Positions 12,305 through 46,427 of a stretch of 64,000 nt of DNA are shown here, one piece after another; within the stretch, counting starts at the first letter, position 1, and each line of letters opens with the position of its first letter. Source of the stretch: Haloarcula limicola (GTDB lineage Archaea > Halobacteriota > Halobacteria > Halobacteriales > Haloarculaceae); NCBI RefSeq assembly GCF_010119205.1, contig NZ_WRXM01000005.1, positions 62,001-126,000 on the forward strand, given 5' to 3'. The notes under the pieces were generated by a model that did no database searches, was not told where the DNA came from, and saw only the letters and a program-made list of their open reading frames with translations. The translations under genes and the position numbers were made by a program.

Positions 12305-12409
12305 TCGAGTAAATACAGGGTACGCCTAGGTAAAAAACCTGCCTTTCAGTCTATATTGAAAGGCGATAACTCGAAGAGGGTTAAGTAGGGCGCCCATAGA
12401 TGTATCCGT

Positions 12410-12649
12410 GTGGTCCGGGACCGAGAATCCGATACAGGTCAATACACAGAGACATATTCTGATGAGGCATTCCTCGATGCTATCGACAGCGTAGACCCAC
12501 CGACGACAGCGAATGTCGCCGAATCAGTGGGATGTTCCTATGACTTAGCATATCGCCGTCTCCGTTCGCTTCGTGACGAAGGTAGTGTCGATAATACTGA
12601 GGTTGGCGGGTCGTTTCTCTGGGAACATACTGAGCGCGAAACTGAATGA
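12410..12649 (+). CDS. small winged-HTH protein, possible controller of the DpnII-like system
   Basis: A 79-residue acidic protein beginning with GTG. The core has a helix-turn-helix pattern (TTANVAESVGCSYDLAYRRLRSLRDEG) followed by a short beta wing. It lies between the divergent methyltransferase and the endonuclease gene, 58 bases before the endonuclease start. Restriction-modification systems often have a small controller protein in exactly this place, delaying nuclease expression; that role is inferred from position. Alternatively it may simply be a haloarchaeal regulator. Confidence 0.7.
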   Translation: MVRDRESDTGQYTETYSDEAFLDAIDSVDPPTTANVAESVGCSYDLAYRRLRSLRDEGSVDNTEVGGSFLWEHTERETE

Positions 12650-12707
12650 GACGCCGTTCAATACCCCTGTAAAGGTTATTGAAGTGAAGGAACGTTCTAC
12701 CGCGGTT

Positions 12708-23288: not shown

Positions 23289-23290
23289 GG

Positions 23291-24187: not shown

Positions 24188-24189
24188 CC

Positions 24190-25125: not shown

Positions 25126-25333
25126 ATGATACACAGATTGAACGTTATTAGTACAGAAATAGGTTACGGTACTGAAGAATACAGAACGATGAAATGGTTT
25201 TGCTAATCCTGCTGTCCGCTTCTATTATTCTTCTATCAGAGAGGCGAGCTTAGACTCTCTGCGAGAGAATACTTCTTATTTGGCGGTCGTACTCTATCTC
25301 CTGAACATGCTGGCTACCACCACTTCAGACCGT

Positions 25334-25831
25334 TTACTCTCCGATCTTACTTTCGTCGAAACTTGCGGCGATGGTCCCGAGGATATCCTCCTGTTGTGAG
25401 TCACCATTCGGCTGCTCGTTCTCGATGAACGAAATAAGCCCATCTCTGGGGGTGCTTGCCGATTCTCCAAACTCCGTCTCGAGACGATCGATACCCGCTC
25501 GTGCATACCGAGCGAGCACTTCGAGTTGTAGCTGCGGGTCGACTAGTGCTTCAGGGTCACCTGTATGTTGATAAGCAATAGAGGCTGCAACCGCTCGATA
25601 GGTCGTCTTGTTCGCGAGGTGCATCCAGAGCATTTCACCTTGCGTGTTGCCTTCTCCCGCATACTCACTCGTATCGTAGCCCGCAGCGGTCGTTCGGTCG
25701 ATAGTTGCATACCCCACACACCCAGCGAAGACGAAGAGGTCGACGTAGGTATTGAAGAGGTCCCACTCTTCGACCATTTTGTCGTACAGCGAATGCCGAT
25801 AGTAGTTCTGTCGAATAGTTGATTCTGGCAT
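25334..25831 (-). CDS. 165-aa protein next to DndD-like ATPase
   Basis: A mainly helical 165-residue protein, two bases downstream of the DndD-like gene and so in the same operon. The N-terminal part, YDKMVEEWDLFNTYVDLFVFAGCVGYAT, resembles in pattern the small Dnd-system-associated proteins in which a helix rich in aromatic residues is followed by an AAxxGF-type turn. I give that similarity from memory and with caution. The C-terminal 40 residues are acidic. It may be the accessory or regulatory subunit of the ATPase. Confidence 0.65.
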   Translation of the reverse strand: MPESTIRQNYYRHSLYDKMVEEWDLFNTYVDLFVFAGCVGYATIDRTTAAGYDTSEYAGEGNTQGEMLWMHLANKTTYRAVAASIAYQHTGDPEALVDPQLQLEVLARYARAGIDRLETEFGESASTPRDGLISFIENEQPNGDSQQEDILGTIAASFDESKIGE

Positions 25832-25833
25832 GG

Positions 25834-27867
25834 TTAGGGCTCCGTAACCGCAGTTTCGTTTTCAATCGTTGTCTGGGGGAATGTCTCTGCACTGTCACCA
25901 GCGTCGTACTCGAGACGATACTGCTGCCCAGCAATCGCGGAAAGTTCGCTTGCAACCGGTCCTCGCCACTGTGAGTCTGTCACGAGGATGATTACCTGCT
26001 CAGCCATTTCTGGAATGACCCGGCTCACCTGTCGACGGTGGTCATCATCGAGGGCCCCGAACGGGGAGTCCATCATGATAGGATAGATACCGCCGCTGAA
26101 ATACTCTGTATCGTCGCTCGATTCGTAACGTTCTCGGGCGATCTGGACCAGACTTCCGATGAAGGTGAGACTTGCAATTTGGCGCTCACCACGCGATTTC
26201 TCTACTTCGAGATACTCGTTTTCGACCTGGTCTTTGATGTGGAGTTCAAAGGCGTCTGTAATCTCTGCCTGATATCCCTTGGTCGCGATCTCTTCGAAGG
26301 TCTGTTCGACAAGTTTATTCGACCAGTTGCGGACACGTTTTTGCAGGTCGTCAAACGATGCTTCCAGCTGTCGACGGACTGATTCTGTAGCCCGCATCCG
26401 CTTTCGCGCGAGTTCGGCCTCCTTTTTATCTTGCCGTGCTTCGTCGATATCGGTGTTTACCTCTGCCAGCTCTTCATCTAACTCTTCAATCTTGATCTCG
26501 TGGCGGACGATATCGCTTTCCGTTTCGCTGAGTTGGTCAGCCTTCGAATCTCGTGCTGACTCCAGTTCTGCTGGAGTCTCTCCGGTCTGGGGGTCAACAA
26601 CGTCTATCTTTTCGACTTGGGCGCTGATCTCACTCAGCTGTTCTGCGATCTCCTGTTCCCGGTCACGGAGTTTCGAGCGCCGTTCGAGTAGCTCTGAGAT
26701 GCGCTCGAAATAGTCGGTCCGCTCTGAATCCAGCTGGGTGAGATGTGAGATGATACGTATTGCAGCCTGATCGAACCCTTCAGTTACATCCTCTGATTGG
26801 TACGCTGTGACCTTGGCGTATGGCTCTGTGTCCGGTTCGAGCGGGCGGCCACAGAGACAGGTGCCGTCAGTTAGCAATCGGTCGATGAACTGGTTCGACA
26901 CCTCCGAGGGGAGTACACCCTCCTCGCGGAGTCGGTCGAGGTCCTTTGCCGTCTCTTCGACCGCTGGCATGGCAAAAGGGAGATGGCCCTGAGTGCTGAT
27001 CGTGTCTTCGATGTCGTCGTTAATGGCGTCGACCTCTGCGTTGATTCGTTCGAGTTCCGACTCGAGTTCTGTACGCTCTTCTTCTAACTCGGATGAATCG
27101 TCTATTTGTTCGAGTTTGTGCTTGATCTCGTCGATCTCCTCGTTTAACCGAGCTTTCGTGTCCTGGGCCGCACCAAGTGCCTGTTCTCGATCGGCTTTCT
27201 CCTCGCGAAGCGTTGTCCGTTGGTCCATCAGGGACTTGAGCTCCGTACTCGCAGCCTCCTGTAGTTCGTCTTCGAAGCGCTCCTCGACAGCCTCGAGGTG
27301 GGTGATCGAGCGCTCGATAATCTTGAGCCCCATGATATTCTGGATAGCGGCTCTGATCTCGTCTTGACTCCGCGTCTCTGAGAGGCGAGTGATATACTCG
27401 CCATCGAAGAAGAACAACGAACTCAGCCGCGTTGGGAGTATCTGTTCGATGGCGTCTTGTGGGTTATTTCGCGTGCCTCTGGTACCATCGGGTTCTGAAA
27501 ACGTCAGCGAGAGACCGTTGTCGATGATCTCCCCTTCGTAGTCGCTTGCCGACTGTTTCTGGTAGTCGACCCAACGGGTGAGTTCATAGTCGATATCTTC
27601 GTCTTCGAACTCGAGTACGGCCTCGACACGGACAGTGTCACCCGTCTCAGTCTCGGCGAACGACCCTTGACTAGCAAGTTTATCGGGCCGGAGGGTGAAG
27701 TCCACTTCGTCATATAGCACCCACGTCAGAGCGTTTTTCAGCGTCGTTTTCCCCGAGCCGTTCTGGCCGTGGACGACAGTAACGTTTTGCTCACCACCTT
27801 GTGCGAACGTAATTGTTCCCGTCCGAAACTGGCGGAAGTTCGTGAGATGGAGTCGGTGTAATCGCAT
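25834..27867 (-). CDS. DndD/Rad50-like SMC-type ATPase
   Basis: A 677-residue ABC-type ATPase with a split head. The N-terminus MRLHRLHLTNFRQF leads to Walker A HGQNGSGKTTLKNAL (about residues 34-47) and LSSLFFFDGEYITRLS (about 150). A coiled coil of roughly 330 residues follows, interrupted near residue 335 by GTCLCGRPLEPD, a degenerate zinc-hook-like turn. The C-terminal half-site has the Walker B/D-loop MMDSPFGALDDDHRRQV and VTDSQW. The FFFDGE and DSPFGALD motifs are typical of DndD of DNA phosphorothioation systems, but no DndA, DndC or DndE gene is in the window. Inference: a DNA-end or structure sensor in a restriction-type defence operon. Confidence 0.83.
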   Translation of the reverse strand: MRLHRLHLTNFRQFRTGTITFAQGGEQNVTVVHGQNGSGKTTLKNALTWVLYDEVDFTLRPDKLASQGSFAETETGDTVRVEAVLEFEDEDIDYELTRWVDYQKQSASDYEGEIIDNGLSLTFSEPDGTRGTRNNPQDAIEQILPTRLSSLFFFDGEYITRLSETRSQDEIRAAIQNIMGLKIIERSITHLEAVEERFEDELQEAASTELKSLMDQRTTLREEKADREQALGAAQDTKARLNEEIDEIKHKLEQIDDSSELEEERTELESELERINAEVDAINDDIEDTISTQGHLPFAMPAVEETAKDLDRLREEGVLPSEVSNQFIDRLLTDGTCLCGRPLEPDTEPYAKVTAYQSEDVTEGFDQAAIRIISHLTQLDSERTDYFERISELLERRSKLRDREQEIAEQLSEISAQVEKIDVVDPQTGETPAELESARDSKADQLSETESDIVRHEIKIEELDEELAEVNTDIDEARQDKKEAELARKRMRATESVRRQLEASFDDLQKRVRNWSNKLVEQTFEEIATKGYQAEITDAFELHIKDQVENEYLEVEKSRGERQIASLTFIGSLVQIARERYESSDDTEYFSGGIYPIMMDSPFGALDDDHRRQVSRVIPEMAEQVIILVTDSQWRGPVASELSAIAGQQYRLEYDAGDSAETFPQTTIENETAVTEP

Positions 27868-27874
27868 AAGTAGA

Positions 27875-28033
27875 TTACTCCGGAATCTCCTCTTCGACGA
27901 TCTCTTTTAATTCAGGGATAATATTGTGTGGCTTACGCATGTGAAGTTGCTTCTTTTCTGCACGAAGTGTGCGCTCGCGAATGCGTGCCAGCGTCTCGGT
28001 ACTAACGTCCTCTGTGTCTTCACTGTCAGTCAT
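27875..28033 (-). CDS. 52-aa charged protein upstream of the DndD-like gene
   Basis: A short gene (ATG at 28033, TAA at 27875-27877) seven bases ahead of the DndD-like start. The protein is helical and charged, with ETLARIRERTLRAEKKQLHM in the middle and an acidic end (EIVEEEIPE). The tight spacing, a good ATG and a coherent amphipathic sequence argue that it is real. It may be a small subunit or a leader whose translation is coupled to the ATPase. No family recognised. Confidence 0.6.
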   Translation of the reverse strand: MTDSEDTEDVSTETLARIRERTLRAEKKQLHMRKPHNIIPELKEIVEEEIPE

Positions 28034-28151
28034 ATACGATCACCTGACAATCTATGGGTATTAATCTGGCTGGTACGCAGTGCATGAAGTCTAGTGCAGT
28101 AGTTCTCAGTGCAGCCTTGGAGTAGCGGTTGTCTCTGTTGGGTCATGGATG

Positions 28152-29576
28152 TCACATTTGGCGCAGGTTGAACTCGCGTTTGAGTTCGCCGATGGCGCCA
28201 GCATCGGTTGGAATGCCATCAATATCGGCATCTGGGTGGTTTCGGGCCGATTCAGCGAATAGCGTGACCCGTTCGAGTTCACGTTTGATGAGATTGCGCT
28301 CGGTCGTGAACTGCGATTCGTCACTAGCCGCGTCTTCGCGGATCGCCGGTGGTGGGGCGACGACGAAATCGTGGATCACGGCGTGGTGTTTCCCCGGATA
28401 GGTTCGCAGGATGCGGCCTCGGCGCTGGACGAATTGCCGAGGGTTCGAGGAACTCGCGAGCATGTACGCAGTCCGTGTCGCCGGAACGTCCACGCCTTCG
28501 TCGAGACAGCGGATAGCGACCAATGCTTGAATTTCCTCCTTGTCGAAGCGCGATAACAAGGTCTGGCGTTCGCTTCGTGACTCATCGGCAGTAAAGCGCT
28601 CTGCACGCAAGCCAAGTTGGCTTCGAAGTCTTGAGACGGCCGCGTCGACGTGGCGTCGTGTTCGGGACGTGATGTCGCCTTCGACCGTCCCATCTCCGCA
28701 GTAGACGAGCGTGTGTTTCGTCTGCTGGTCGTATTCGAGTAACTCGACCAGCCGGTCGAGTTTTCGCTCGGCGGTCCCGACCAGTCGAGCGCGCTTGAAC
28801 AGTGCGAACTGCAGGTCCTTGTTCCCCTGGAGATCTGCATCACCGAGGTCGTCATCTGATTGGCTGATGAGGCGGGCTATCTTTTTCGAGAGGCCGAGAT
28901 ACTCGTCGGCTTCATCTTCGGTCAACTCGACGACGTGTGGGATATAGTAATACTCACAGAGTGCGCCATTTTGAATTGCCTCTGTGAGGTCGTACTCATA
29001 GACGACGCCGCCGAAGTACTCCATGAGGTCTTCGGTCCCCGCTTCATCGTAGAACCGTTCTGGCGTTGCCGAGAGGCCCAGCCGAAGGTGGATATCTGTT
29101 GGCAATGCCGATTTGAGGTGTGGCGCACCGAGGTGGTGGACCTCGTCGGCTATTAGCATGAATCGCTCGCGATTGACCCGGCTCAACACTCGCTGGAACG
29201 TCTCAGAAGCGAAGGTAGCGTGGGTTGTGATAATGACGAGACTCTCACGAACGCCCAAGTCGAACTCTGCGAGTTCACCTTCGAGGCGTTCCTGCCATTG
29301 GCGACGGCTCTCGTAGGCAAGGATCGGTGAGCCACCGAAATCTTGGACATCGTCTGCCCACTGGTCAACGAGGTGTTGATATGGGGCAGCGATGACCAGC
29401 GCCAGTCGGCCATCGTATTGCTCGGCGACGTGGGCAGCCGTCAGCAGGGAGGTAACTGTTTTACCGGTCCCAGTTGCCATCCGAAGCACGCCACGGCCAC
29501 CAGCAGCCGCCCAGCGTTGCACTGCCGCTTGTTGGTACTCGCGAGGTTCGACCCAGTCTGGGCGTGCGAATGTCAC
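28152..29576 (-). CDS. SF2 DEAH-type helicase, Dnd-restriction-like
   Basis: A 474-residue SF2 helicase beginning with GTG and overlapping the upstream 66-aa gene by four bases. Motifs: EPREYQQAAVQRW (Q-like), Walker A MATGTGKTVTSL (about residues 33-44), motif II LIADEVHHLGAP, motif III LGLSATPERF, motif V RCLDEGVDVP and motif VI QFVQRRGRILRTYPGK. Length and motif wording recall the helicases annotated as DNA phosphorothioation system restriction enzymes (memory, not checked). With the DndD-like ATPase downstream, this forms a Dnd-like restriction module that lacks the sulfur-modification genes. Codon use and GC are slightly higher than in the AddAB-like operon. Confidence 0.82.
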   Translation of the reverse strand: MTFARPDWVEPREYQQAAVQRWAAAGGRGVLRMATGTGKTVTSLLTAAHVAEQYDGRLALVIAAPYQHLVDQWADDVQDFGGSPILAYESRRQWQERLEGELAEFDLGVRESLVIITTHATFASETFQRVLSRVNRERFMLIADEVHHLGAPHLKSALPTDIHLRLGLSATPERFYDEAGTEDLMEYFGGVVYEYDLTEAIQNGALCEYYYIPHVVELTEDEADEYLGLSKKIARLISQSDDDLGDADLQGNKDLQFALFKRARLVGTAERKLDRLVELLEYDQQTKHTLVYCGDGTVEGDITSRTRRHVDAAVSRLRSQLGLRAERFTADESRSERQTLLSRFDKEEIQALVAIRCLDEGVDVPATRTAYMLASSSNPRQFVQRRGRILRTYPGKHHAVIHDFVVAPPPAIREDAASDESQFTTERNLIKRELERVTLFAESARNHPDADIDGIPTDAGAIGELKREFNLRQM

Positions 29577-32520: not shown

Positions 32521-34299
32521 ATGTCTGAAGACGCGTCAGAATCCCCGCCGGCGCCGGGATCTTCGTACTCTATAGATGACCCGTCTGTCGCGTCCACTGC
32601 GCTCGCTGAGTCGGGACAGGATTCGACTGGTCATCTACTTAACATACAGGCACAGCAGTTTGCGATCGCACAGGGACAACAAGAACTCCTCTCAGTCGAG
32701 GAGATCAAAGACCGAATCAAACTGTTGGATCACCAGCTTGAAGCAGCGCATCAGGCCCTCTTTCAGATGGGGGGAGGCGCGTTGTTTGCTGATGAAGTCG
32801 GGCTGGGGAAGACAATCGAGATCGGCATGGTCCTCAAGGAGATGAATTTCCGGGACACGCGAGATAGTTTTCTCATACTGACCCCAGCTCAGTTAGCACC
32901 CCAGTGGCAAACAGAACTCCAGGAAAAGTTCGGGCTCGACTTCGTCTGTAACTATGACGACGAGTTCCAAGGGTTCGACGCTCACGATAAGATCATCGCA
33001 AGTGTCGACACGGCGAAATCGAAAACGAACAGGGCAGATGTCCTCTCGCGGCGCTGGGACGTCCTCGTTCTCGATGAAGCCCATTACGTTCGGAATCGGG
33101 ATACAGACCGCTACGAACTCATCGAGGAACTCACCTATGGAGAGGCGTTTTTCGCCACCGCGACGCCCATTCAGAATGACATCTCCGATCTGTACAATAT
33201 TGTCGACCTTATCCGGCCGGGCATGCTCGGCACGCAGAAACAGTTCGATAACCGGTACGTTGTGGATAGTGACGATGCACAGATACAGCGTGGTGATGAG
33301 CTACAGTCGAAACTCGACCGTGTGATGATTCGGAATCGCCGTGAGCAGACGGATATCGATTTCACCAATCGAGCGGTTCACACGAACGTCTTCGAGCCAT
33401 CAACCGCTGAACGAGATCTCTACGATGCTGTCACCAACTACGTGAGGTCCAACTATTCGAGTAAGGGTGCGCGGCATCTCGTTTTATTCACGCTCCAGAA
33501 AGAAGTTGTATCGAGTCCGTATGCTGTCGAACAGACGATTGAAAACTGGGTCGGAGACGATGAGAAACGGCTGACCGCAAGCGAGGAAGACGCACTCGCG
33601 GAGATCAGCGAGAGCATCGCCAATATAGATGAGACAACCAAGCAAACGCGGTTGCGAAACGTAATCGAGACCATCCAGGAGCAAGCCGAGACGACACGAG
33701 CCGTTGTCTTCACTCAGTTCCGACCTACGCAGGACGCGATCGCTGATAGTGTCCGTGAACTCGATTTGCCGGTCCACATCGTTAACGGAGATCTGTCTAG
33801 TCAAGCGAAAGAACGCAAAGTCGCCGATTTTGAATCTGAAGGCGGTATTATGGTTGCGACAGATTCCATCAGTGAAGGACGGAATATGCAGTTCTGTAAC
33901 GTACTGGTCAACTACGACTTGCCGTGGAATCCGATGAAGGTCGAACAGCGAATCGGCCGCATCGACCGTATCGGACAGGACCGAGAAGTCCACGTTTTCA
34001 ACATGGCACTTGCGGATACTATCGAAGAACACGTCCTCGACAAGTTATTCGGCAAGATCGATCTTTTCAGCCAGTCTATCGGAGGCCTTCGAGACATTCT
34101 CTCGCGGATGGAACAGTCTGGATCGGACTTCGAACGAGAAGTCTTCGAGAAGCTCCGAAATGCAGACTCGCAGGTTGAGTTAGAGAACAACTTCGAGGAG
34201 ATGGCGGTCGACCTCGAAAAGAACACCGAAGCGGCAGAGAAGATGAACGACTTCAATCGAAGTGTCTTCGATAGCTTCGAGTTCGGAGAGAGTGCATGA
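32521..34299 (+). CDS. SNF2-family helicase (RapA/HepA-like core)
   Basis: A 592-residue SF2/SNF2 translocase. The N-terminus is Ser/Pro rich. Motif I is ADEVGLGKTIEIGM (about residues 95-107), Ia LTPAQLAPQWQTEL, motif II LVLDEAHYVRN (about 183), motif III ATATPIQND, motif IV region VVFTQFR, motif V VATDSISEGRNMQ and motif VI EQRIGRIDRIGQ. The DEVGLGKT and GRIDRIGQ wording is that of RapA/HepA and DISARM-type helicases. It is shorter than those because the usual C-terminal domain appears to be on the next gene. Its stop overlaps the next ATG by four bases. It is the first gene of a compact operon. Confidence 0.9.
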   Translation: MSEDASESPPAPGSSYSIDDPSVASTALAESGQDSTGHLLNIQAQQFAIAQGQQELLSVEEIKDRIKLLDHQLEAAHQALFQMGGGALFADEVGLGKTIEIGMVLKEMNFRDTRDSFLILTPAQLAPQWQTELQEKFGLDFVCNYDDEFQGFDAHDKIIASVDTAKSKTNRADVLSRRWDVLVLDEAHYVRNRDTDRYELIEELTYGEAFFATATPIQNDISDLYNIVDLIRPGMLGTQKQFDNRYVVDSDDAQIQRGDELQSKLDRVMIRNRREQTDIDFTNRAVHTNVFEPSTAERDLYDAVTNYVRSNYSSKGARHLVLFTLQKEVVSSPYAVEQTIENWVGDDEKRLTASEEDALAEISESIANIDETTKQTRLRNVIETIQEQAETTRAVVFTQFRPTQDAIADSVRELDLPVHIVNGDLSSQAKERKVADFESEGGIMVATDSISEGRNMQFCNVLVNYDLPWNPMKVEQRIGRIDRIGQDREVHVFNMALADTIEEHVLDKLFGKIDLFSQSIGGLRDILSRMEQSGSDFEREVFEKLRNADSQVELENNFEEMAVDLEKNTEAAEKMNDFNRSVFDSFEFGESA

Positions 34300-37200
34300 G
34301 TGTCGACGATATTGGAACGCTCAACCGGTTAGAGATCCGGCGGTTCGCTGCAACCGTAATCGAATCGTACGGTGGAACAGTCAACCGTGGGGATGGGGAG
34401 TCGTGGGACGTCACACTGCCAGGGCCACTGACCAGACTTGCTGATGATCGAGAGGTAAGTGTCGTCTTCGACCCGAAAGATCAGAAACCTGGTCGTCCAG
34501 AGCTACTCGTTCAGCCTGGGTCGCTGGCCTTTAACGAGCTACTCGAATTAGGCAGACAAGAAGTGTCGGTTGGGAAATTATATCTCACTGCAGACGACCT
34601 CCAGGTGCAGTTGCCAGATGCGGTCGACGTTTCAGAATTTGCGGTGACTGTCGGTGAGTTCGAACCGAAGCAAATGGCCCGGGCAGTGTCGTTCCATTTT
34701 CTCGTCGAGTTAGAAAGCGTCTCGTCGTTCCATCGGGAGCGCCTCGAGACGGTGTCGCTGGACCTGGCCAATGGAAGCCAGCTCCCGGAGCTCACAGACC
34801 GACTGTTAGCCCATACCGGCGCTCTTTCACGAGGACACCAGCCGACAGATATCGACCCGGACAGCGAGACGATCGAAGGGCGGTACGAGACCGCGGTCGA
34901 AGAGGTACAGACCCGTATCGATGATGAGGTCACCGAGTTAGTTCAGGAAGCCGAGGAGACGGTCACAGGGCGAAAAGAAGAGATTGAAACGGTGTACGAA
35001 CAACGACGCGAAGAACTGGAGGTTCGCATCACCGAGCAGAAAGAACAGGTGCGAAAGTGGCGTGAGAAGAAAAAGCGCGCTCGGAAATCGAGTACGCGAA
35101 AGAAATATAAGCAGAATCTCTCCAGAGCCCAGCAGGAACTACGGGAGGTCCAGCAGGCTGTTGCCGACGAGCGGGAAGCCCTTCGCGAAAAAGAGGAACA
35201 CGAGATCATCGAGACAGCTGACCGCCACAGTCTGGAGGTTGATATCTCACTCGTTGGAATGACGCTAGTCACCCACGATATTGGTGCGCTTGCCCTCTCT
35301 TTTGATGACGGAGAACGGACTGGAGAGACGACGGCGCGATATGCGCCAGCCACAGATGGTATCATTGCCTTCGACTGTGAGACCTGCGGGACCGGGTTCG
35401 ATTCGACGACCCGCCCACAGGTTTGTGAATGCGGGAGTATCGTCTGTGCTGGCTGTCTCGATGTATGTGAATCCTGTCAGGTAACCGGCTGCCCTGACTG
35501 TGACACGCCAGTTATGGCCTGTGAGTTGTGTGGCGGCGTCGAATGTCACGACTGTGGATCCCTCTGTGAGACGTGCGAGCGCTCGGTTTGCTCACACCAT
35601 ATTTCGGTCTGTACTACGAGTTCTGATCCAACCTGTTTAGCTTGTGGCCAGGAGTGTACAACGTGTACTCACTTTCACAGTGAGAGTCATCTCAGCCGCT
35701 GTTGTGTCGATCAGGAATTCTACTGCCCAGACCACACTGCAGCGTGTGATACCTGTGGCGATACCGTCTCTACGCCACAGTTGGACGACTGTACAGCATG
35801 CGGGAACTCGTTGTGCCCCGACGACCGACTGACTTGCGCGACGTGTGATGAGACGAGATGTATCGACGACGTCATCGCCTGTGATGGCTGTGGTGGCTAT
35901 CACTGCACAGAGAGTGGTCTCACATGTGGCATCTGTGCGAATCAGTTCGGTGAGGAGCACCTCTCCGCGTGCGGTACCTGTGGCGAATCAGTCTGTGAGG
36001 CTGACCGGATCGAATGCTCGGCCTGCGATGACAGTACTTGTACCGACCACGCCTCGGACTGTGTCGAATGCGATGCTGCACTCTGTCCGGATCACATCTT
36101 CGAGTGTGATTGCTGCGGTGAGTCGGTTTGTGATGACCATCTCGACATCTGTGAGACTTGCGACCGGGCTATCTGTGAGACAGACCAGACCTTCTGTACT
36201 GTTTGTGACGCAGTTACCTGCCCAGATGATACTACAGCCTGCACTGCATGCGATGAGCCACTGTGTCCTGCGCACACTTCGACATGCGAAAGCTGTGGAA
36301 CTGCGCTGTGTCCGACTGATACGCTAACCTGTAGTGAACACGAGACGGCACTCTGTGCGACCCATGCTGAACAGTGTACGCAGTGTGATGAGGTCTACAG
36401 TCCATCAGTTGGAACGACGTGTGCCCACTGTGAGGATTTCGTCTGCACTCATGATTCAACCGAGTGTGACCACGAGGGAGACGTAGTTTGTGCTGCTCAC
36501 ATTGAGTCCTGTAGCGCCTGTGGCGATCAGTTCTGTCCCTCGCATCGGACAGTGACACATGATAGCGGTGAGACGCGCTGTTTCGACCATTCGACCCGCT
36601 GCACCGATTGCAACGAACAGTTTGCATCAGATGGTTTGGCCAACTGTGCCAAGTGTGGTGAGCCTGTCTGTGATGCAGATCAAGCTGACTGTGTGACGTG
36701 TGGCAAGACACTCTGCCAGACCCATCAAGGCCAGTGTACCGTCGACGAGGCGTCACACTGTCGCTCGCATCTCACGCCATGTGCTACCTGCGACGATACC
36801 GTTTGTACCGACCACGTCACTACCTGTACTGAGTGCGGTGACGAGCTCTGTCACGAACATACGACCGGCTGTACGATGTGTGATCGCCCACACTGTGGGG
36901 ACCATCTCGAAGATTGTGCTGCCTGTACTGACCCTCACTGTGCTGACCATCGTGAACGCTGTCAGGAGTGTGATTCGTGGTTCTGTGAGCAGCATCTCCA
37001 GGAGTGCAGTGATTGTGGCGACACTGTTTGTTCGGCTGATAGCCACCACTGTGCCAGCTGCGACGAGGTCACCTGTGAGACACACAGCGGTCAGTGCGCT
37101 CAGTGTGCGGAGACATTCTGTACTGAGCATTACACGGCCTGTAGCACGTGCGAGCAGCCGACCTGTCTCGAGCATGCACAGACATGCGTTGAGGGCGGTG

Positions 37201-37673
37201 GTCGTCACTGCAGTGACCACATGTCGTCGTGTGATGTCTGTACCGACGATTCCGACCAGGGTCGCCCCCTCTGTCCAGCCCATCGTCGGACATGTATTGT
37301 TGGCCAAGAGACGCTCTGCACAGAGCATTCACACTTCGGGCCGATCGCGGAACTAGCACTCTGTGCCGACCACCTTGTCGAATGCGATATGTGTCGACAG
37401 CGGGTCGCTGAAACCGAAATCACCGATGGCGAGTGCCAGACTTGCCAAAACCTCACAACAGCAGAAGAGCAAACGCGCGGACTAACAGCCAAACTCCCAG
37501 ACGACTTCGAGTTCTCTAAGCCGGCGCTTAGTGTGAATAGTCAGTATATCGTTGCTTACGGGACGCAACTCTTCGGTTCGAACGAGATTGTGGTCGTTGA
37601 GCGCGAGAGTGGAAGGACAGTTGAGCGGTATGGCGTCGGTTGGATCGCCTGGCTTACAGGGGGGCGATTATGA
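34296..37673 (+). CDS. giant cysteine-rich zinc-finger array protein (1125 aa, about 125 Cys)
   Basis: Three regions. Residues 1-150 have a WDVTLPGPL...VVFD...PELLVQPGSLAFNELLELG pattern resembling the C-terminal domain of RapA/SNF2 helicases, as if split from the preceding gene. Residues about 185-315 form a highly charged coiled coil (VEEVQTRIDDEVTELVQEAE onward, KKKRARKSSTRKKYKQN). Residues about 370-1060 are a tandem array of some 30 units of C-x2-C-(D/G)-x3-5-C-x2-(H/D)-x5-8, period 20-24 residues. By hand count there are about 125 cysteines. Each unit could hold one zinc, in treble-clef, B-box or RING-like fashion. The last 50 residues are a short beta domain. It overlaps the helicase by ATGA and the next gene by ATGA. 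The array probably binds DNA, protein or a modified base; nothing like it is familiar to me as a known system component. Confidence 0.88.
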   Translation: MSVDDIGTLNRLEIRRFAATVIESYGGTVNRGDGESWDVTLPGPLTRLADDREVSVVFDPKDQKPGRPELLVQPGSLAFNELLELGRQEVSVGKLYLTADDLQVQLPDAVDVSEFAVTVGEFEPKQMARAVSFHFLVELESVSSFHRERLETVSLDLANGSQLPELTDRLLAHTGALSRGHQPTDIDPDSETIEGRYETAVEEVQTRIDDEVTELVQEAEETVTGRKEEIETVYEQRREELEVRITEQKEQVRKWREKKKRARKSSTRKKYKQNLSRAQQELREVQQAVADEREALREKEEHEIIETADRHSLEVDISLVGMTLVTHDIGALALSFDDGERTGETTARYAPATDGIIAFDCETCGTGFDSTTRPQVCECGSIVCAGCLDVCESCQVTGCPDCDTPVMACELCGGVECHDCGSLCETCERSVCSHHISVCTTSSDPTCLACGQECTTCTHFHSESHLSRCCVDQEFYCPDHTAACDTCGDTVSTPQLDDCTACGNSLCPDDRLTCATCDETRCIDDVIACDGCGGYHCTESGLTCGICANQFGEEHLSACGTCGESVCEADRIECSACDDSTCTDHASDCVECDAALCPDHIFECDCCGESVCDDHLDICETCDRAICETDQTFCTVCDAVTCPDDTTACTACDEPLCPAHTSTCESCGTALCPTDTLTCSEHETALCATHAEQCTQCDEVYSPSVGTTCAHCEDFVCTHDSTECDHEGDVVCAAHIESCSACGDQFCPSHRTVTHDSGETRCFDHSTRCTDCNEQFASDGLANCAKCGEPVCDADQADCVTCGKTLCQTHQGQCTVDEASHCRSHLTPCATCDDTVCTDHVTTCTECGDELCHEHTTGCTMCDRPHCGDHLEDCAACTDPHCADHRERCQECDSWFCEQHLQECSDCGDTVCSADSHHCASCDEVTCETHSGQCAQCAETFCTEHYTACSTCEQPTCLEHAQTCVEGGGRHCSDHMSSCDVCTDDSDQGRPLCPAHRRTCIVGQETLCTEHSHFGPIAELALCADHLVECDMCRQRVAETEITDGECQTCQNLTTAEEQTRGLTAKLPDDFEFSKPALSVNSQYIVAYGTQLFGSNEIVVVERESGRTVERYGVGWIAWLTGGRL

Positions 37674-38692
37674 GACCCGGTATACTACTTCCCTCCTGGT
37701 ATCATACCGGAGATGTCAGGCAGACGGTCCACGCGGCGGCTGCCGCTGGGATAGAGACGGACGAAGTCGCATCTGTCCTGAGCGATGAGATATTCGATGA
37801 TATTCCGTTACAACGCGTCAAATCGATCGTCGAAGCGATTCCGACAGATGATGACCAAGCACCGGACGTCGAAAATTCGCTCTCACAGGCTGCGACAACA
37901 GACGCGGCGGCACGGCCACCGTTGGCCAATCGATGTACAGTAACTGATCTCGAGTATCTCTCGGCGAGAGAAGCGGCCCGCATTGTCGGTCTCGTCCTCG
38001 AATTATTCGATGGGAACACTCTCAGACCACCAGCCACCGAATCCGTCGAAGCTGACCTTCTCTGGCGTCGACAGTACATGAATGTCGGGCTCAAGATTAT
38101 CCCCCAACGGACGACTGTCGGTGTCGAGTCTATCGAGGCGCTCCGCAGCGGGCAACTTGTCCCGGACGATCTGCAGAGGCCGTCCGAACTTGCTATCGTC
38201 ACGAGCGGCAGATTTGATGAGGAGATACTGGCTGAGGCTGCGAACAACGATATCCACTGTTTCGACGCTGGCCACGTCGAGGAGTGGCTACTGCGGGCAC
38301 AGTTATCGCCGGACATCGTCGGGACCCTCCTCGAAAATGGGGAGAATCACGATGGCCCGCTCACGGATTTGGTCGACGTCCCACCGATCCCAGCGCCACG
38401 AACATCTACCGACCCTCTCGAAATTGAGCGAGCCTTCGATGTCGATAGCTACAACGTCGCGGCAGAGACGACCTCATCGGAACCACAGCCACAGGAATCG
38501 GGGACCACTTCGGCCCAATCTACGGGCGAGACGAGTGCTGCGCCCTCACAAACTGACGAAGCGGATCCAGAGACAGTAGCTGATCCACTAGCGGGCTCAC
38601 AACCACCGCCTGGGAAGACAGGGACGCTGTACGCGGATCCCGATGAAGACGGAGAGTATACTGCGTTCGACGACTACCTTGATGACCTCTAA
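37670..38692 (+). CDS. Mrr-like restriction-fold protein with altered active site
   Basis: About 340 residues from the ATG at 37670, which overlaps the stop of the cysteine-rich gene. Residues about 120-215 match the C-terminal half of the Mrr-type PD-(D/E)XK domain: IIPQRTTVGVESIEALRSG, then LAIVTSGRFDEEILAEAANNDIHCFDAGHVEEWL, where Mrr has a strand, the QxK, and then TSGxFT..A...A...(I)xLxDG. Here the usual QxK reads as Q-R, and no clear upstream D-x(n)-E is seen, so catalysis is doubtful. The last 110 residues are Ser/Thr/Pro/Glu rich and disordered. Two possibilities: a nuclease with a variant site, or a structural DNA-binding module. Confidence 0.62.
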   Translation: MRPGILLPSWYHTGDVRQTVHAAAAAGIETDEVASVLSDEIFDDIPLQRVKSIVEAIPTDDDQAPDVENSLSQAATTDAAARPPLANRCTVTDLEYLSAREAARIVGLVLELFDGNTLRPPATESVEADLLWRRQYMNVGLKIIPQRTTVGVESIEALRSGQLVPDDLQRPSELAIVTSGRFDEEILAEAANNDIHCFDAGHVEEWLLRAQLSPDIVGTLLENGENHDGPLTDLVDVPPIPAPRTSTDPLEIERAFDVDSYNVAAETTSSEPQPQESGTTSAQSTGETSAAPSQTDEADPETVADPLAGSQPPPGKTGTLYADPDEDGEYTAFDDYLDDL

Positions 38693-38698
38693 CTACCA

Positions 38699-39595
38699 AT
38701 GACTGCAAGCCTCGAGGAAGTATCCACGACCGTACCGATTACCGATGGCCAGTCCGTCTCGATCGAACCAGGGCAACCTTGGCCGTCTGCCTATCGCGGT
38801 TCGAAGTATAGCCTCGTTTCTGACGAGGACTATGACGACCCCGTCGTCAAATGGAAACAACGTGATCTCGCGATCTTCACGGACCCGCCCGACGGGCTTT
38901 GGCGTGCACTCGCGTTGCTGGGAAAAAGTGGTGGCTACGGGAGCTTTCGAGTCACTGCTGACAGCGAAATCATCACGAAAGTACCCGCTGATGAGTACAA
39001 ACACGTTGAACAGGCGCCGGTAGATAGTGGCTGGATTCCAGTGTACGTCGGCCAACTTTCCGGGACGATCGATTTTGACGAAGTCGACTCCGACCCGTCC
39101 ACGCCGAGCCGACAGCAAATTAACGTCTGGACTGGCTTTCCCTTCAACCATGGTGAACGATGGAGTGTCAGCCATGAAGGGACTCTGTTCTGGAAGTGGC
39201 GAGACTATCGGTTTGAGTCGACGTTCGACCACTCGGAACTCGTCGAGACCTATCAATCGTATCGTGGTACTGCTGGGCGACTCTATCTAACCGAATATGG
39301 GCACATCTGGGTGAACGTTCCAAAGAACGACATCGCGCCAGGAAAAGAGGGGGCGATTGGCACAGCAATCAAGGACTGGAAACGGGATGCTGAAGCCAGC
39401 GGTAATACCGCGACACTTCGGTTGGTAAACCGCCGGCTCGTTGCAACGAGTCGCGATGATGACCCGTCAACGGGTCACTTTCCGATCCATCTCGGTCATC
39501 TCCGGTCCTTCGATGACGGTCTGATTCCCAAACCGGTTGTCGACGATCCCTCCTACTATCAGGCTGTTTGTGAATACGAGCAAGTCTGGGAATGA
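38699..39595 (+). CDS. two-module protein, paralogue of the gene at 23291
   Basis: A 298-residue protein, identical in length to the one at 23291-24187 and matching it through its whole length; roughly half the residues agree by eye. Both modules are recognisable: PWPSAYRGSKYSLV...SFRVTADSEIITKV...PVYVGQLSG and GFPFNHGERWSVS...GRLYLTEYGHIWVNV...HLGHLRSFDDGL. It is six bases after the Mrr-like gene, the fourth and last gene of the SNF2 operon. Because each helicase cluster has one copy, this protein is likely a shared subunit type such as a recruiter or specificity factor. No catalytic residues are seen. Confidence 0.75.
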   Translation: MTASLEEVSTTVPITDGQSVSIEPGQPWPSAYRGSKYSLVSDEDYDDPVVKWKQRDLAIFTDPPDGLWRALALLGKSGGYGSFRVTADSEIITKVPADEYKHVEQAPVDSGWIPVYVGQLSGTIDFDEVDSDPSTPSRQQINVWTGFPFNHGERWSVSHEGTLFWKWRDYRFESTFDHSELVETYQSYRGTAGRLYLTEYGHIWVNVPKNDIAPGKEGAIGTAIKDWKRDAEASGNTATLRLVNRRLVATSRDDDPSTGHFPIHLGHLRSFDDGLIPKPVVDDPSYYQAVCEYEQVWE

Positions 39596-39680: not shown

Positions 39681-40193
39681 TCATTTAATAGAAAACATAC
39701 CTTTATTTTCAGTGACTTTCATTTCAACACCACATTTTTGACATCTACCTGAACGACCGTGCTCACCCCATACAATCTGTGTCTCCCTATCGTAGCAATT
39801 CGTACAGAACGCGATGAACCAGCCGTGATCATATCTATGCATGGTAAAACATCGTTTGCAGAATGCATATAGCGGATTTTCTGTCGAAGTAGGAGTCCCA
39901 GCACAATCCTCGGTATGGCATGTGCGAGGCGTACGAGGAGTCACTGAGTTCGAGTTCACACGGTTTGCCTTTTCAGGAGCAGAAGCACCACTAACATGGA
40001 TTGCATCATGGCAGCTTGCACAGAGTGTTTTTAAGTTCGACAATCTGTTCGACCCCCCATCCTTTAGCGGAACGATGTGGTGGACATGAAGGTCCTGGGA
40101 AGAACTTCGCCCACAATTTTGACACTGGTAATCGTCTCGTTGGAGAACAGTTTCCCTACGAGTTGTCCAATCGGTTGAACGCTCATTCCCCAT
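39681..40193 (-). CDS. HNH endonuclease with two extra zinc-binding regions
   Basis: A 170-residue protein. The first 65 residues are an HNH domain: RDDYQCQNCG (zinc knuckle), LHVHHIVPLKDGGSNRLSNL (H-H with N) and CASCHDAIH (second zinc knuckle with the final His). This is complete and should be catalytic. The rest holds more Cys pairs (CHTEDC, CKRC, CTNC, CQKCG), probably another zinc ribbon. It is a single gene between the SNF2 operon and the IS6 element. Small free HNH genes of this type are found in haloarchaeal accessory DNA as restriction or homing nucleases. Confidence 0.82.
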   Translation of the reverse strand: MGNERSTDWTTRRETVLQRDDYQCQNCGRSSSQDLHVHHIVPLKDGGSNRLSNLKTLCASCHDAIHVSGASAPEKANRVNSNSVTPRTPRTCHTEDCAGTPTSTENPLYAFCKRCFTMHRYDHGWFIAFCTNCYDRETQIVWGEHGRSGRCQKCGVEMKVTENKGMFSIK

Positions 40194-40270
40194 ACCAGTT
40201 CTGTAACAGTATTCTCATACTAATTTATTTATAAACCGGACAATAGGAAAGTCTGCTAAAATTAGTATAC

Positions 40271-40988
40271 TCTGTTTAAACGGTCGTGTTTAGTTTGGAG
40301 CATTGTGCCAGCGAGCGAAGCTCTGTAACCACTTTTCAGCTGTTTCGGGTTCAACGTGGCTGAAGCAGTTCGAAAACGAGGAGGTTCGTCGCTTCAGCTC
40401 TCGAAAGATTCGTTCGACAGCGTTCCGATTTCCGTGGCGACGCATCTGAAATCGGAGTCCGGCTCGTTGAAGTGCTGTTTGGAGGTGTTGAGCGCCATCG
40501 ACGAGAAACACGGCGGTTTCGACATCGTGTTTTTGCTGAAGTTCGCGAAGAAATATCTCGGTGAGGGCGGTCGTAGTGGTTGAAAACAATCGGACGTGAA
40601 GCAGTTGGTTCGTTTGCGGGTCAGCGGCGGCGTACAGCCAGAACTGCTCGTCGTTAATGCGAATCACTGTTTCGTCGAGCGCAATCTGATTCGGGGATCG
40701 TCCAGATTCTGGCTGTAGATCGGCTTTCTGCACCCAATCATGGATCGCTTTTTTCGACCGTTGGACACCCAACGAGTCGAGTAATCCGACGGTATTCGAC
40801 AGTGACAGACCCGCAACGTGCGATTGAATACCAATCTTCATCGCCAGCTCGGGTGTCCGCTCGCGCTCCACAAAATCCAAATCAATCCAGTCTCTATTTC
40901 CGCTGAGGCGGCTGATTTCTGGCATAGGCACCAAGAAATCCGTCCGCCTCACTTTTCACGCTTAACTAAACACGACCGTTTAAACAGA
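40271..40988 (-). mobile_element. IS6-family insertion sequence (~718 bp)
   Basis: The ends are perfect 25-base inverted repeats at 40271-40295 and 40964-40988, each with the CTGTTTAAACGGTCGTG core. Between them lies a single transposase gene. Length and single-ORF design fit IS6 elements. The eight bases outside the left end (tagtatac) and right end (tcgaggac) differ, so there is no direct target repeat. Such elements insert through cointegrates and often show mismatched flanks after recombination between copies, which may have brought the flanking segments together. Confidence 0.9.
40290..40925 (-). CDS. IS6-family transposase
   Basis: A 211-residue DDE transposase from the ATG at 40925 (MPEISRLSG), which matches the usual start of haloarchaeal IS6 transposases; a longer frame to 40952 is less likely. 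Residues include the N-terminal WIDLDFVERERTPE, AVHDWVQ-like IHDWVQKADLQPE, catalytic IALDETVIR (D), VFLVDGAQH (D) and HGNRNAVERIFRELKRRT (E). The DDE set is intact and the gene is full length, so the element may be active. Confidence 0.92.
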   Translation of the reverse strand: MPEISRLSGNRDWIDLDFVERERTPELAMKIGIQSHVAGLSLSNTVGLLDSLGVQRSKKAIHDWVQKADLQPESGRSPNQIALDETVIRINDEQFWLYAAADPQTNQLLHVRLFSTTTTALTEIFLRELQQKHDVETAVFLVDGAQHLQTALQRAGLRFQMRRHGNRNAVERIFRELKRRTSSFSNCFSHVEPETAEKWLQSFARWHNAPN

Positions 40989-42474: not shown

Positions 42475-45075
42475 GTGCCACAGAAATATGATTCGATAAT
42501 TACCCTGCCCGGTGGTGTCGAAAAATACACAGAGACCCTTCATCGGATGCTCAAATTTGTCGACACCGAATCACCTACTCTCGAGGAATTTGCTGAGTGG
42601 GTCCTCGAGACCTTTTCGCAAATGTCGAGTCGGGACTCTGCAGAGGATAAAAGCCGCCTTCTTCGTCGAATGGGTGCTGTGACGGTAGATAACGAGGAGC
42701 GATTTCAGCTAACTGAGTTAGGCAACCAGTTGTTGAATCAGCCACCGCAGGAAAATAGAGAACTATACTTTGAGACTCTGACAGGCCGGTATATTGGTTT
42801 TAAAACTATATTACAGGCTTTGAAACAACAGCCGGCTTCAGTTGAGAAGCTACAGACTGTCCTCCATGCCGTCCACAACGAAAACTGGGGATCAATCTAC
42901 CAAGCGGAACACCGAGTCAACTGGTTGCGGAGTCTTGGTATAGTTGAGAAAGACCAAGAGACTGTACAGCTCACACGATATGGTCAGGAGATTGCCGAAG
43001 AATATCCTTCACTAGATGTCAACATCGTTGACCTACCTGAATCTGCAATTCAGGCACCTACTAACGGGCCTGACCCACAATCGAATATCGACCTCGACGC
43101 ATTCGAAGACGACGTTACTTACTACTGGGTGAACCAGAGTAATGCCGCCGAGCGTGAGGGCAGTTATCTCCGCTCGAGCGATACATACTATACCCGTGAT
43201 CTAACGAAGCTAACCCCTGGTGACGTACTAATTCACTATTGGGACGGCGGAGTTCGAGCCTATTCGGTCGTCCAAAGCGAGGCATATGAAGTCTCGGGAG
43301 AAGAACTTGAAGGAGTAGACGATGAGGAAACGTACTGGTGTGTCGATATTGACCTCCACTCGCTTGAGCCAATTCGCGATATCGAAACGATTGCGCCTGT
43401 CCTCCGACGAGACGATATCAAGCAGGGTCGAGAAAAATACGCGATTAATGCGACTGGGGTTCAGTCGTGGTATCTCTGCAATCTCACTCCTGCTGCAGCC
43501 CAGTACCTACTTAGTACCTATCCTACTCAACCAGGTGATACGAGCCCAGACGGAGGTCGATACTTCTGGGTGACGGCTAACCCGGATATTTGGGCTCCCG
43601 AGAAAATAGCTGATTCCGACGGAGAGGAGGGTCAGGTCTTCTTTGAAGCGTTCAATTCTCAAGGGAATAAGCGGCGTATCTCCGAGGCGTTTGAGCGCGC
43701 TACTTCGGGTGACGAAGTTGTCTTCTACGAGTCGGCTCCAACTCAAGAAATCGTGGCCCTTGGAACAGTCGTGCAAGGGCTCCACGAAGAAGACGGGACA
43801 GTGGGTATGACAATTGCATATGACCGGGCAGTCAATGGCATCAATTGGAATGACCTGACTGCAGTCGACGATCTCGAGGATTCTGCGCCAATTCGACAGA
43901 ATGCCCGTGGGAGTATCTTCGAACTCGAACAGAGTGAGTACGAGACGATTCTGGCACTCGAACCTGAGCCACCCGACCGAGAAGATATCGAGCAACTCCG
44001 TGAACGACTTACTCTTCCAAGTGTCTCTATCTCGATTCCCGATGGCTTGTATTTCGACGACGAGACACGGCTTACGAGAGAGATTGAAGTTGCACTTGAA
44101 GCTGGCAAACATATTATTTTCACAGGTCCACCAGGGACCGGCAAGACCAAACTCGCCACGCACGTCGCAACCCTCGCAGCCAGGTATGATGCTGTCGACG
44201 ACTATCGATTTACAACTGCCACTGCTGATTGGACTGCCTTCGATACCATCGGAGGATATGTTCCCAATCGAGACACACACGGACAGGAACTACTGTTTGA
44301 ACCCCGCCTTTTTCTCCAGTGTTTCCGAGATGCCACTGGTGTGAAAAATGAGTGGCTTGTTATTGACGAACTGAACCGAGCGGACATAGACAAAGCAATA
44401 GGGCAGTTATTCTCCGTGCTTTCCGGTGACTCGACCGAACTCCCGTACGAACGAGATGCTCCAATAGAGGTTAAATCACTGGCTGCCGATGCAGACGATG
44501 ACGTCCTCGAGACGATCGTCTCGTCTCCAGATACATTCCCCGTGACGCCTGCCTGGCGACTGCTTGCGACAATGAACACCTATGACAAAGCGTCGCTATA
44601 CGAACTTTCCTACGCGTTCATGCGCCGATTTGCATTCATTCACGTTGGCGTTCCTGTCCTCAAAGATGACGATGGCGAACTTCGGACCTCGTTGCTTGCC
44701 CCGTCTCCTGACGAGCCGAACTACGCATCGGCTTGGCTCGACCAGTCGCCTGGTTTGGAACGCCCACTATCGAAATGGAGTACGGAACTAACCGAGGTCT
44801 GGGATCGAGTCAATGAAGAGCGGGCAATCGGGCCAGCGATTGTTCATGATATGGTTCGATATATTGCTAACTACGACGGGCGGGCACAGCCCGAAGAAGC
44901 GTTTACCAGTGCTCTCGTGACCCATGTCTATCCACAGCTGGAAGGTCTCAGGCAAGAGAAACAGAGAACGATAATCGAAGGGCTTTGTAGCAGCGACGTA
45001 CCCGTCGATACGGACCGTCTCTGGTATCAAGCTAGTGACTTCCTCGGGTTACCAGATACCCGAGATACGGAATGA
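42475..45075 (+). CDS. McrB-like AAA+ motor with N-terminal winged helices and two EVE domains
   Basis: An 866-residue GTG-initiated protein. Residues 1-185 form two winged-helix units (second ending VNWLRSLGIVEKDQETVQLTRYG). Residues about 205-340 and 360-500 are EVE/PUA-fold readers of modified bases: YYWVNQSNAAERE...GDVLIHYWDGGVRAY, and RYFWVTANPDIW...GDEVVFYESAP...IVALGTVVQG. An AAA+ domain follows with Walker A TGPPGTGKTKLA (about 550), Walker B LVIDELNRADIDKA (about 628) and the sensor TMNTYDKASL. The DELNRADIDK wording is diagnostic of McrB. Its stop overlaps the McrC gene by ATGA. EVE-McrBC is a known type IV architecture for restricting modified foreign DNA. Confidence 0.9.
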   Translation: MPQKYDSIITLPGGVEKYTETLHRMLKFVDTESPTLEEFAEWVLETFSQMSSRDSAEDKSRLLRRMGAVTVDNEERFQLTELGNQLLNQPPQENRELYFETLTGRYIGFKTILQALKQQPASVEKLQTVLHAVHNENWGSIYQAEHRVNWLRSLGIVEKDQETVQLTRYGQEIAEEYPSLDVNIVDLPESAIQAPTNGPDPQSNIDLDAFEDDVTYYWVNQSNAAEREGSYLRSSDTYYTRDLTKLTPGDVLIHYWDGGVRAYSVVQSEAYEVSGEELEGVDDEETYWCVDIDLHSLEPIRDIETIAPVLRRDDIKQGREKYAINATGVQSWYLCNLTPAAAQYLLSTYPTQPGDTSPDGGRYFWVTANPDIWAPEKIADSDGEEGQVFFEAFNSQGNKRRISEAFERATSGDEVVFYESAPTQEIVALGTVVQGLHEEDGTVGMTIAYDRAVNGINWNDLTAVDDLEDSAPIRQNARGSIFELEQSEYETILALEPEPPDREDIEQLRERLTLPSVSISIPDGLYFDDETRLTREIEVALEAGKHIIFTGPPGTGKTKLATHVATLAARYDAVDDYRFTTATADWTAFDTIGGYVPNRDTHGQELLFEPRLFLQCFRDATGVKNEWLVIDELNRADIDKAIGQLFSVLSGDSTELPYERDAPIEVKSLAADADDDVLETIVSSPDTFPVTPAWRLLATMNTYDKASLYELSYAFMRRFAFIHVGVPVLKDDDGELRTSLLAPSPDEPNYASAWLDQSPGLERPLSKWSTELTEVWDRVNEERAIGPAIVHDMVRYIANYDGRAQPEEAFTSALVTHVYPQLEGLRQEKQRTIIEGLCSSDVPVDTDRLWYQASDFLGLPDTRDTE

Positions 45076-46427
45076 GTGGTGGTTTTTCACGAGATGAACT
45101 TGCGGATGCAGTTCTTGCTGAGTTACTAACGTATCTCCAATCTGGAAGTCTCAATACAGATGTCATTACGGATGCGATCGTTCCTTCGGAGCTCGAGATA
45201 AGCGAGTGGGAGCGATTACAGCGAGTCCACTTCTGTCTCGCCCCACAGATTAGTGAGTTTTGTACGTCGATTTGGGACGATTTGCGGGGGATAAAAACGG
45301 TTACCGACAGAGAACGGAACAAAACTCGTGGCGCAGTTGAGGGACAAGTTGATTGGGGGCAGACGATTCAGACACGAGCTGAGACCGGGTTCAGTGACCG
45401 CTCTACGTTCGTCTGTTCGGCGCCAGTGTCGGAATACGATATTCCTGAAAATCGCGTTTTGAAGCGCCTTCTCTGGGAAGTCGAGCGAACTGTAGACACC
45501 CTTCGAGATGTCGATCAACCATGGCGATATGAACCGTGGAATGAGACTGACCTTGATCGCTTCCAGCGCCGCTATCGCCGTAATATCCATCTCAGTCGAA
45601 TGCCTGACGGTGAAGCCTGTACGGTAACTGGTCGTGACTTTACGGCTGCTCGGCAAGCACGAACCGCGATGTATCGTACAGCTGCTCGCTGGCTTTCTGT
45701 GCTACAAAAGATGCGACGTGAGGAATACGCCGACCCAGACGTGCAGGCTGTTCTCTCTCACTCCCTTGTATTACCGGCTACAGATGCTCGGTTGCTGGAG
45801 CTATTTACCACGTTCAAACTGGTCAAAGCACTTCAAGAGATTGTTCCTGGTCTCACACTACAACCAATCGAGAGCGGTGACTCGCCTGTTGCTCGATTGG
45901 CTAATGACGAGACTGCTGTCTGGATAGATGTCTACCACGACCAAACCGGCACTCTGTCATTTCATGAACCACTGCCTGATGGGGTTGAATCATCGCTACC
46001 GGCTGATCCGGGCTATTTCCGAGACTATGTCGCATCCCAAACCGCATATAAGCGCGTCGCTGGCCGGATGAGTGATTCAAGTCCCCGTTTGGCACTGTAT
46101 CGCGGTCGACCCGATATCGTCGTCGAGATTCGCACGAGTCAGGATAGTCAACCCACTGCCGTTCTCCTAGGCGAAGTCAAACAGACAACCCGTCAAGAGA
46201 CGTTTCGTGAAGGGCTCAAAGAGCTAATCGAGTATTGGCATCACGGCCAGTCAGCGAATCGCCGCTTAGCATCCCCTGGCGAACCAGTTACGCTTGGATT
46301 TGTCACAACCAATGGTCTCGGGGCGCGACAGAGCGCCGGCCCCTGTTTCCATGTTGATGCTGCGGGGAGCTTTCAACAGGTTCTAGAGACGCTATTTGCA
46401 CGAAGTATATTCCCCAGTATATCCTGA
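45072..46427 (+). CDS. McrC-like PD-(D/E)XK nuclease subunit
   Basis: A 451-residue protein translationally coupled to the McrB-like gene. The N-terminal 240 residues are a helical stalk-like region of the McrC type. The C-terminal domain shows GRPDIVVEIRTS (acid, about residue 345) and AVLLGEVKQTT (E-x-K, about 366), an intact PD-(D/E)XK site, then an HHGQSANRRLA helix. It supplies the cleavage for the EVE-McrB translocase. It is long for McrC and lacks the usual zinc site. No third gene follows; the next unit is on the other strand. Confidence 0.85.
   Translation: MSGGFSRDELADAVLAELLTYLQSGSLNTDVITDAIVPSELEISEWERLQRVHFCLAPQISEFCTSIWDDLRGIKTVTDRERNKTRGAVEGQVDWGQTIQTRAETGFSDRSTFVCSAPVSEYDIPENRVLKRLLWEVERTVDTLRDVDQPWRYEPWNETDLDRFQRRYRRNIHLSRMPDGEACTVTGRDFTAARQARTAMYRTAARWLSVLQKMRREEYADPDVQAVLSHSLVLPATDARLLELFTTFKLVKALQEIVPGLTLQPIESGDSPVARLANDETAVWIDVYHDQTGTLSFHEPLPDGVESSLPADPGYFRDYVASQTAYKRVAGRMSDSSPRLALYRGRPDIVVEIRTSQDSQPTAVLLGEVKQTTRQETFREGLKELIEYWHHGQSANRRLASPGEPVTLGFVTTNGLGARQSAGPCFHVDAAGSFQQVLETLFARSIFPSIS

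Follow-up and report, generated by a model that had tools for sequence, protein, structure and literature searches.

The window, that is, the whole stretch of 64,000 nucleotides from Haloarcula limicola analyzed here, sits within a 201,921-base contig of a 3.9-Mb haloarchaeal genome and carries four adjacent genes, designated A, B, C and D. The A/B and B/C junctions are 4-nt ATGA overlaps and the C/D gap is 6 nt; re-reading of these junctions bears out the tight four-gene arrangement of the original prediction, and its assignments (SNF2 helicase, zinc array, Mrr-like protein and module protein) also hold, the Mrr-like character of C being visible only through its relatives. The prediction had taken these four genes as the entire system, but D2 and a second helicase belong to the conserved unit as well. 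Since a D2-D'-helicase cassette lies at 20334-25134 in the window and the cassette occurs elsewhere as well, the real unit comprises six to seven genes rather than four. The features are as follows.

32521-34299, plus strand: A, Swi2/Snf2 translocase of 592 aa, matching SNF2-rel_dom and Helicase_C
34296-37673, plus strand: B, zinc-array protein of 1125 aa with 125 Cys, comprising an N-domain and a CxxC array
34296-35330, plus strand: N-terminal domain of B (residues 1-345), AlphaFold2 model with pLDDT 85
35331-37673, plus strand: zinc array and conserved C-terminal tail of B, from the CxxC unit count
37670-38692, plus strand: C, predicted Mrr/PD-(D/E)XK fold of 340 aa with the catalytic motif lost; relatives match Mrr_cat
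38699-39595, plus strand: D, module protein of 298 aa in which a ~75-residue module occurs twice (hhalign)
24190-25134, minus strand: D2, two copies of the D-type module (hhalign)
23291-24187, minus strand: D', D paralogue 52% identical to D, in the D2-D'-helicase cassette clade of the tree
20334-23288, minus strand: second SF2 helicase of 984 aa, PbeA/TIGR04095-related, its C-terminus carrying a D/D2-type module
25334-29576, minus strand: PbeA/PbeC/PbeD genes (CxC ABC-ATPase/DndE), directly upstream of D2
14692-20198, plus strand: pair of an AddB-like PD-(D/E)XK protein and a UvrD helicase-nuclease, a recurrent neighbor

Conservation and arrangement of the gene set

A search for C over 391 Halobacteria genomes, after which about 20 kb was read around the matches, gave a match in 21 genomes, 15 of them with the D-bearing type; further loci came from a D profile search of genome and plasmid collections. 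Including the window, 15 intact haloarchaeal A-B-C-D loci are contiguous and co-directional, with constant order and strand. The original prediction had allowed that gene order might prove unconserved elsewhere; it is kept in every intact locus, and the 14 loci beyond the window rule out a chance assembly. Intact loci occur on chromosomes and on plasmids, several being plasmid-borne (among them those of Halorhabdus tiamatea pHTIA and Haloferax lucentense pSVX82-3), and their hosts include Halobellus rarus, Halorientalis regularis, Halopenitus malekzadehii, Haloferax marisrubri, Halarchaeum nitratireducens, Halorubrum salsamenti, Haloarcula amylovorans and a Haloquadratum MAG. Three further loci (L031, L033 and L037) appear decayed or interrupted, and one (L053) ends at a contig edge. 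No relatives of D were found among the phages and IMG/VR entries searched. A three-gene A-B-C form lacking D is represented by L044-L049 and L117, among them a Halocatena salina plasmid.

D2 and the second helicase lie near A-B-C-D in all 14 intact loci outside the window. Twelve of these have six genes, with D2 (~280-310 aa) and an SF2 helicase of ~960-980 aa beside A, usually in divergent orientation to it and co-directional in L035; L051 and L061/L062 carry the D2-D'-helicase form of the cassette, as does the window. D2 adjoins A or the second helicase in every other intact locus, and the window cassette is placed 7 kb from A, right behind the PbeA/C/D genes. In the tree, the D proteins encoded with A-B-C separate from the D' proteins encoded with the cassette. 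The two halves are not obligate partners, since the cassette is also found without A-B-C in L059, L060, L114, L115 and L116. In four of these (L059, L060, L114 and L115), D2, a D-type gene and the helicase are accompanied by genes for two further proteins, one of 580 aa that has a D...ECK nuclease-like motif and one of 376 aa; the hosts of this second undescribed arrangement are Halorussus, Halalkaliarchaeum and Halobaculum.

The surroundings of A-B-C-D in the window include defense-type genes, encoding Pbe proteins, the UvrD/PD-(D/E)XK pair, a DpnII restriction-modification system, a McrB-like protein and an HNH protein. The AddB-like and UvrD/PD-(D/E)XK pair lies 136 bp from the second helicase, and a Dam-type methyltransferase gene (minus strand) stands beside a DpnII-type restriction enzyme gene (plus strand) at 11360-13670. 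On the other side, an HNH endonuclease gene and a short transposase-like gene (39681-40952) separate D from the McrB-like gene, where an EVE-domain McrB-like ATPase is followed by a 451-aa protein in the McrC position with no Pfam match (42475-46427). The Pbe set of the window is solitary, given that no DndC gene is present in the genome. Its PbeA-like helicase (28152-29576) matches PbeA models only from position ~248 onward and so lacks the N-terminus, the part of PbeA said to hold an HKD nuclease (PMC10853773). In Halopenitus, a gene for a Cas12f/TnpB-like protein lies right downstream of the system (L035:13905-15137).

Motor, zinc array, Mrr fold and module

A retains intact Walker A (DEVGLGKT), DEAH and QRIGRIDRIGQ motifs and aligns with residues 151-642 of Escherichia coli RapA at 26% identity over 538 aa (E 4e-33), which places it with the Snf2 motors of the RapA group. 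The AlphaFold2 model of B residues 1-345 (pLDDT 85) shows an alpha+beta sheet in which a long coiled-coil hairpin precedes the last strand. When Foldseek candidates for this model were compared by VIA-align, RapA 708-968 ranked first with Z 10.2 and rmsd 7.2 over 240 residues, values around Z 10 and rmsd 7 being moderate for a coiled-coil protein; four RapA entries align over 240-245 residues, the further ones at Z 9.6-9.8, and the unrelated rows span mostly coiled coil. RapA is absent from the Foldseek top 50, and hhalign comparison of sequence profiles found no match of RapA to either the B N-domain or C. A and the first ~330-345 residues of B are probably a RapA/BrxHII-type Swi2/Snf2 translocase split in two, an assignment made with moderate confidence since A matches RapA by sequence and the B N-domain by predicted fold only. 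The published description of RapA/BrxHII agrees with this arrangement (PMC12839542). In PHROGs, A and the second helicase match viral helicase families, and the B N-domain matches phrog_36169 (function unknown) at 46 bits, the other proteins being without a match; the latter hit suggests that short homologues of B may travel on haloarchaeal viruses or proviruses.

The remainder of B is an array of about 40 CxxC units, 27 of which fit the strict form C-x2-C-x4-C-x2-x with H/D at the fourth position. Intact D-bearing forms of B contain 110-146 Cys, and the three-gene form contains 44-45. In a comparison with four relatives, conservation is 96-100% for the three Cys ligands, 74% for the fourth ligand (H/D), 63% for one hydrophobic position and 17-36% for the remaining positions, a pattern that suggests a fixed scaffold bearing a fast-changing predicted surface. 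C changes as fast as the array: identities to close relatives are 34-50% for C and 39-48% for the array where A reaches 77-83% and D 68-73%. Positive selection on the array left no sign in the single close usable pair (L030-L031; dN 0.11, dS 0.96), dS being saturated in most pairs. It is conceivable, but only as a long shot, that the array acts as a modular reader in which each of ~40 predicted fifteen-residue zinc units contacts a single step along a nucleic acid or filament, setting the target of a non-cutting translocase that blocks invaders.

The C protein of the window matches no Mrr model by itself, and 14 of the 19 aligned family members match Mrr_cat. In the three-gene form, the Mrr (PF04471) catalytic D...QxK is intact in all four aligned copies, with the motif GDxGVD...QAK and a score to Mrr_cat of 72.8 bits (cut-off 21). 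This motif is lost in 15 of 15 aligned D-bearing copies: none of them retains either E, either G, the Q or the K, and the D is kept in 14. C of the D-bearing form would thus be a catalytically dead Mrr fold, as judged from its residues; it also carries a conserved acidic tail, LYADPxEDG. The C protein of L110 seems to be without the catalytic motif too, so the loss may have occurred more than once. On two plasmids, C is annotated as 'restriction endonuclease', a misleading label.

D, D2 and the second helicase have in common a module that is nameless in all libraries searched. By hhalign, D unit 1 matches D2 unit 2 at 97.7% and the two D2 units match each other at 97.9%, and the C-terminus of the helicase matches D2 unit 1 at 81-91% and D unit 2 at 67%; the two D units are connected solely through D2 and the helicase, not directly. 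The core of the second helicase is PbeA-like (147 bits), its first ~340 residues gave no match, and no nuclease domain was recognized in the protein. For D, an AlphaFold2 model (pLDDT 83) returned no Foldseek match with E<0.001 against the PDB or viral models and a best VIA-align Z of 2.5, results that do not amount to proof of a new fold. A PDB sequence search with profiles of C, D and the B N-domain likewise gave nothing useful. A nuclease as yet unrecognized may reside in D, D2 or the N-terminus of the helicase.

Relationship to known defense systems

The B N-domain finds some match in 72 of the 391 Halobacteria genomes. Its short homologues (about 390 aa, 4-7 Cys) are encoded directly behind an A homologue that is 56-58% identical to A, and in most loci read, these A-short-B pairs adjoin DUF499 and/or DUF1156 genes. 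Such loci are BREX-related systems. The tree of A splits the array-bearing forms (L117 and L118 among them) from the short-B forms with a support of 0.97. Haloarchaeal DUF499/DUF1156 BR systems (PMC12839542) show the same two-gene split, an A-type SNF2 gene followed by a B N-domain homologue; unlike them, the A-B-C-D loci are without the DUF499 ATPase and the methyltransferase and have the array, C, D, D2 and the second helicase in addition. A BrxC or DUF499 ATPase together with a methyltransferase, as expected of BREX or a DUF499 BR system, is missing from the D-bearing loci read and present beside the short-B relatives, and BREX was rejected as an identification on this ground.

RapA/BrxHII helicases combine a Snf2 motor with a C-terminal alpha+beta domain that has a coiled-coil hairpin insert, and they carry an inactive REase-like domain (PMC12839542), which the apparently dead C protein echoes; here, however, A and B are separate genes, the zinc array is added and the dead REase is a separate Mrr-type protein. 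ZorD of Zorya likewise unites an SNF2 motor and an Mrr-like domain, and the intact C protein of the three-gene form reaches 70 bits against the Mrr end of ZorD, whereas in the present set motor and Mrr fold lie on separate proteins, no ZorA or ZorB was seen and C is predicted to be inactive in the D-bearing form. Zorya was rejected as an identification: A scores 94 bits against the ZorD equivalog (cut-off 1500), the Mrr fold is a separate gene with its motif lost, ZorA is represented only by a weak coiled-coil match of 8.7 bits and ZorB by none.

A DISARM-like combination of helicase and nuclease fold, as suggested in the original prediction, fits poorly with the loss of the catalytic motif from all aligned D-bearing C copies. 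The further claim that no gene resembles known components fails for A, whose scores are 256 bits against DrmD models, 212 against BrxHI/II and 142 against ZorD, all below NCBI equivalog cut-offs, and whose nearest relatives lie in DUF499/DUF1156 loci. A is related to DrmD of DISARM but falls short of the two equivalogs (255.7 bits, cut-off 950; 250.4 bits, cut-off 610), and PADLOC recognized no DrmA, DrmB (DUF1998), DrmC or methyltransferase among 18 window proteins (12573-45072); DISARM was therefore rejected as an identification. PbeABCD was also rejected, as the A, B, C and D proteins have no match to the Pbe set, the PbeA/C/D genes of the window are separate and DndC is missing. The second helicase resembles PbeA/TIGR04095 (DNA phosphorothioation restriction helicase) in its core but differs in its N-terminus and C-terminal D-type module, with no phosphorothioation gene DndC in the genome.

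That the system is undescribed holds as far as searched; B, C, D and D2 have no convincing match in PADLOC, Pfam and NCBIfam. The gene set is undescribed in the literature searched, which leaves subscription papers, most preprints and supplements outside its scope; the nearest published are BREX-related systems (PMC12839542) and the YprA-based ARMADA/BRIGADE (PMC12458937). The set is real and conserved, and context and distribution suggest a helicase-centered kind of defense, one that by analogy would work most like BrxHII/BR or ZorD-type motor systems.

Proposed mode of action and alternatives

On balance, the six to seven genes appear to form a system that haloarchaea direct against mobile DNA and that has a split RapA/BrxHII-type dsDNA translocase as its basis, a reading that is favored cautiously. 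A would be the motor, with B supplying the C-terminal alpha+beta/coiled-coil half and the array. The array and C, as the fastest-changing parts, would most likely touch the variable target or partner, and A and D would make up the conserved core. Through their common module, D, D2 and the second SF2 helicase are probably joined in one sub-complex, in which D/D2 may couple the A-B-C sensor/translocase to the second motor. As none of the six proteins has an evident active nuclease, the two motors would probably either arrest replication or transcription of the invader or pass it on to a nuclease whose gene lies close by, in many cases an AddAB-like pair.

RapA acts on RNA polymerase, so defense need not follow from a RapA-like fold, and A-B might instead act at the level of transcription, stopping or recycling the polymerase on templates that are foreign or stressed, while the array docks on RNA polymerase or nascent RNA. 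The RapA-like character of A and the B N-domain and the failure to recognize a nuclease in the six genes speak for such control, but it is unlikely overall: the closest A-B relatives sit in DUF499/DUF1156 loci, the intact Mrr motif of the sister three-gene form points to DNA as the target, and the distribution is patchy and partly plasmid-borne.

It is also doubtful that the system restricts through a nuclease encoded nearby, with the AddAB-like UvrD/PD-(D/E)XK pair as a real but optional component. In the window and in L037, L043/L061/L062 and L059, such a pair is situated no more than 400 bp from the system or the cassette, and in L108/L109 one is equally close to an A-short-B pair; the other partners of the cassette include the 580-aa D...ECK protein. 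The pair is missing, however, from most intact loci within the ~20 kb read, and its co-location could be ordinary defense-island clustering.

For the window specifically, the position of the cassette 7 kb off and directly behind PbeD, with its own D', means that it may partner Pbe there: A-B-C-D would be self-sufficient and the cassette would be the effector arm of the adjoining Pbe operon. The loci with the cassette and no A-B-C are in keeping with this arrangement, which is nevertheless improbable given that the cassette accompanies A-B-C-D in all other intact loci, with no Pbe genes in the stretch read there. A housekeeping unit for DNA repair or chromatin remodeling is very improbable: helicases of the SNF2 and SF2 types often take part in repair, but the D-bearing type occurs in just 15 of 391 Halobacteria genomes and on plasmids in several cases, some loci are decayed, and the sister forms are tied to defense-type loci.

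If the favored reading of a translocase-based system against mobile DNA is true, haloarchaea would possess a helicase-centered immune system, some parts of which the libraries searched do not contain, namely the long zinc-unit array on a split RapA-type motor and the module that the second helicase has in common with D and D2. The three forms (short B in DUF499 loci; the three-gene form, in which the Mrr motif is intact; six to seven genes with a dead Mrr) would then trace a path from a nuclease-bearing system to one with no evident nuclease, and this series would make it possible to test directly whether an invader can be stopped by motors alone.
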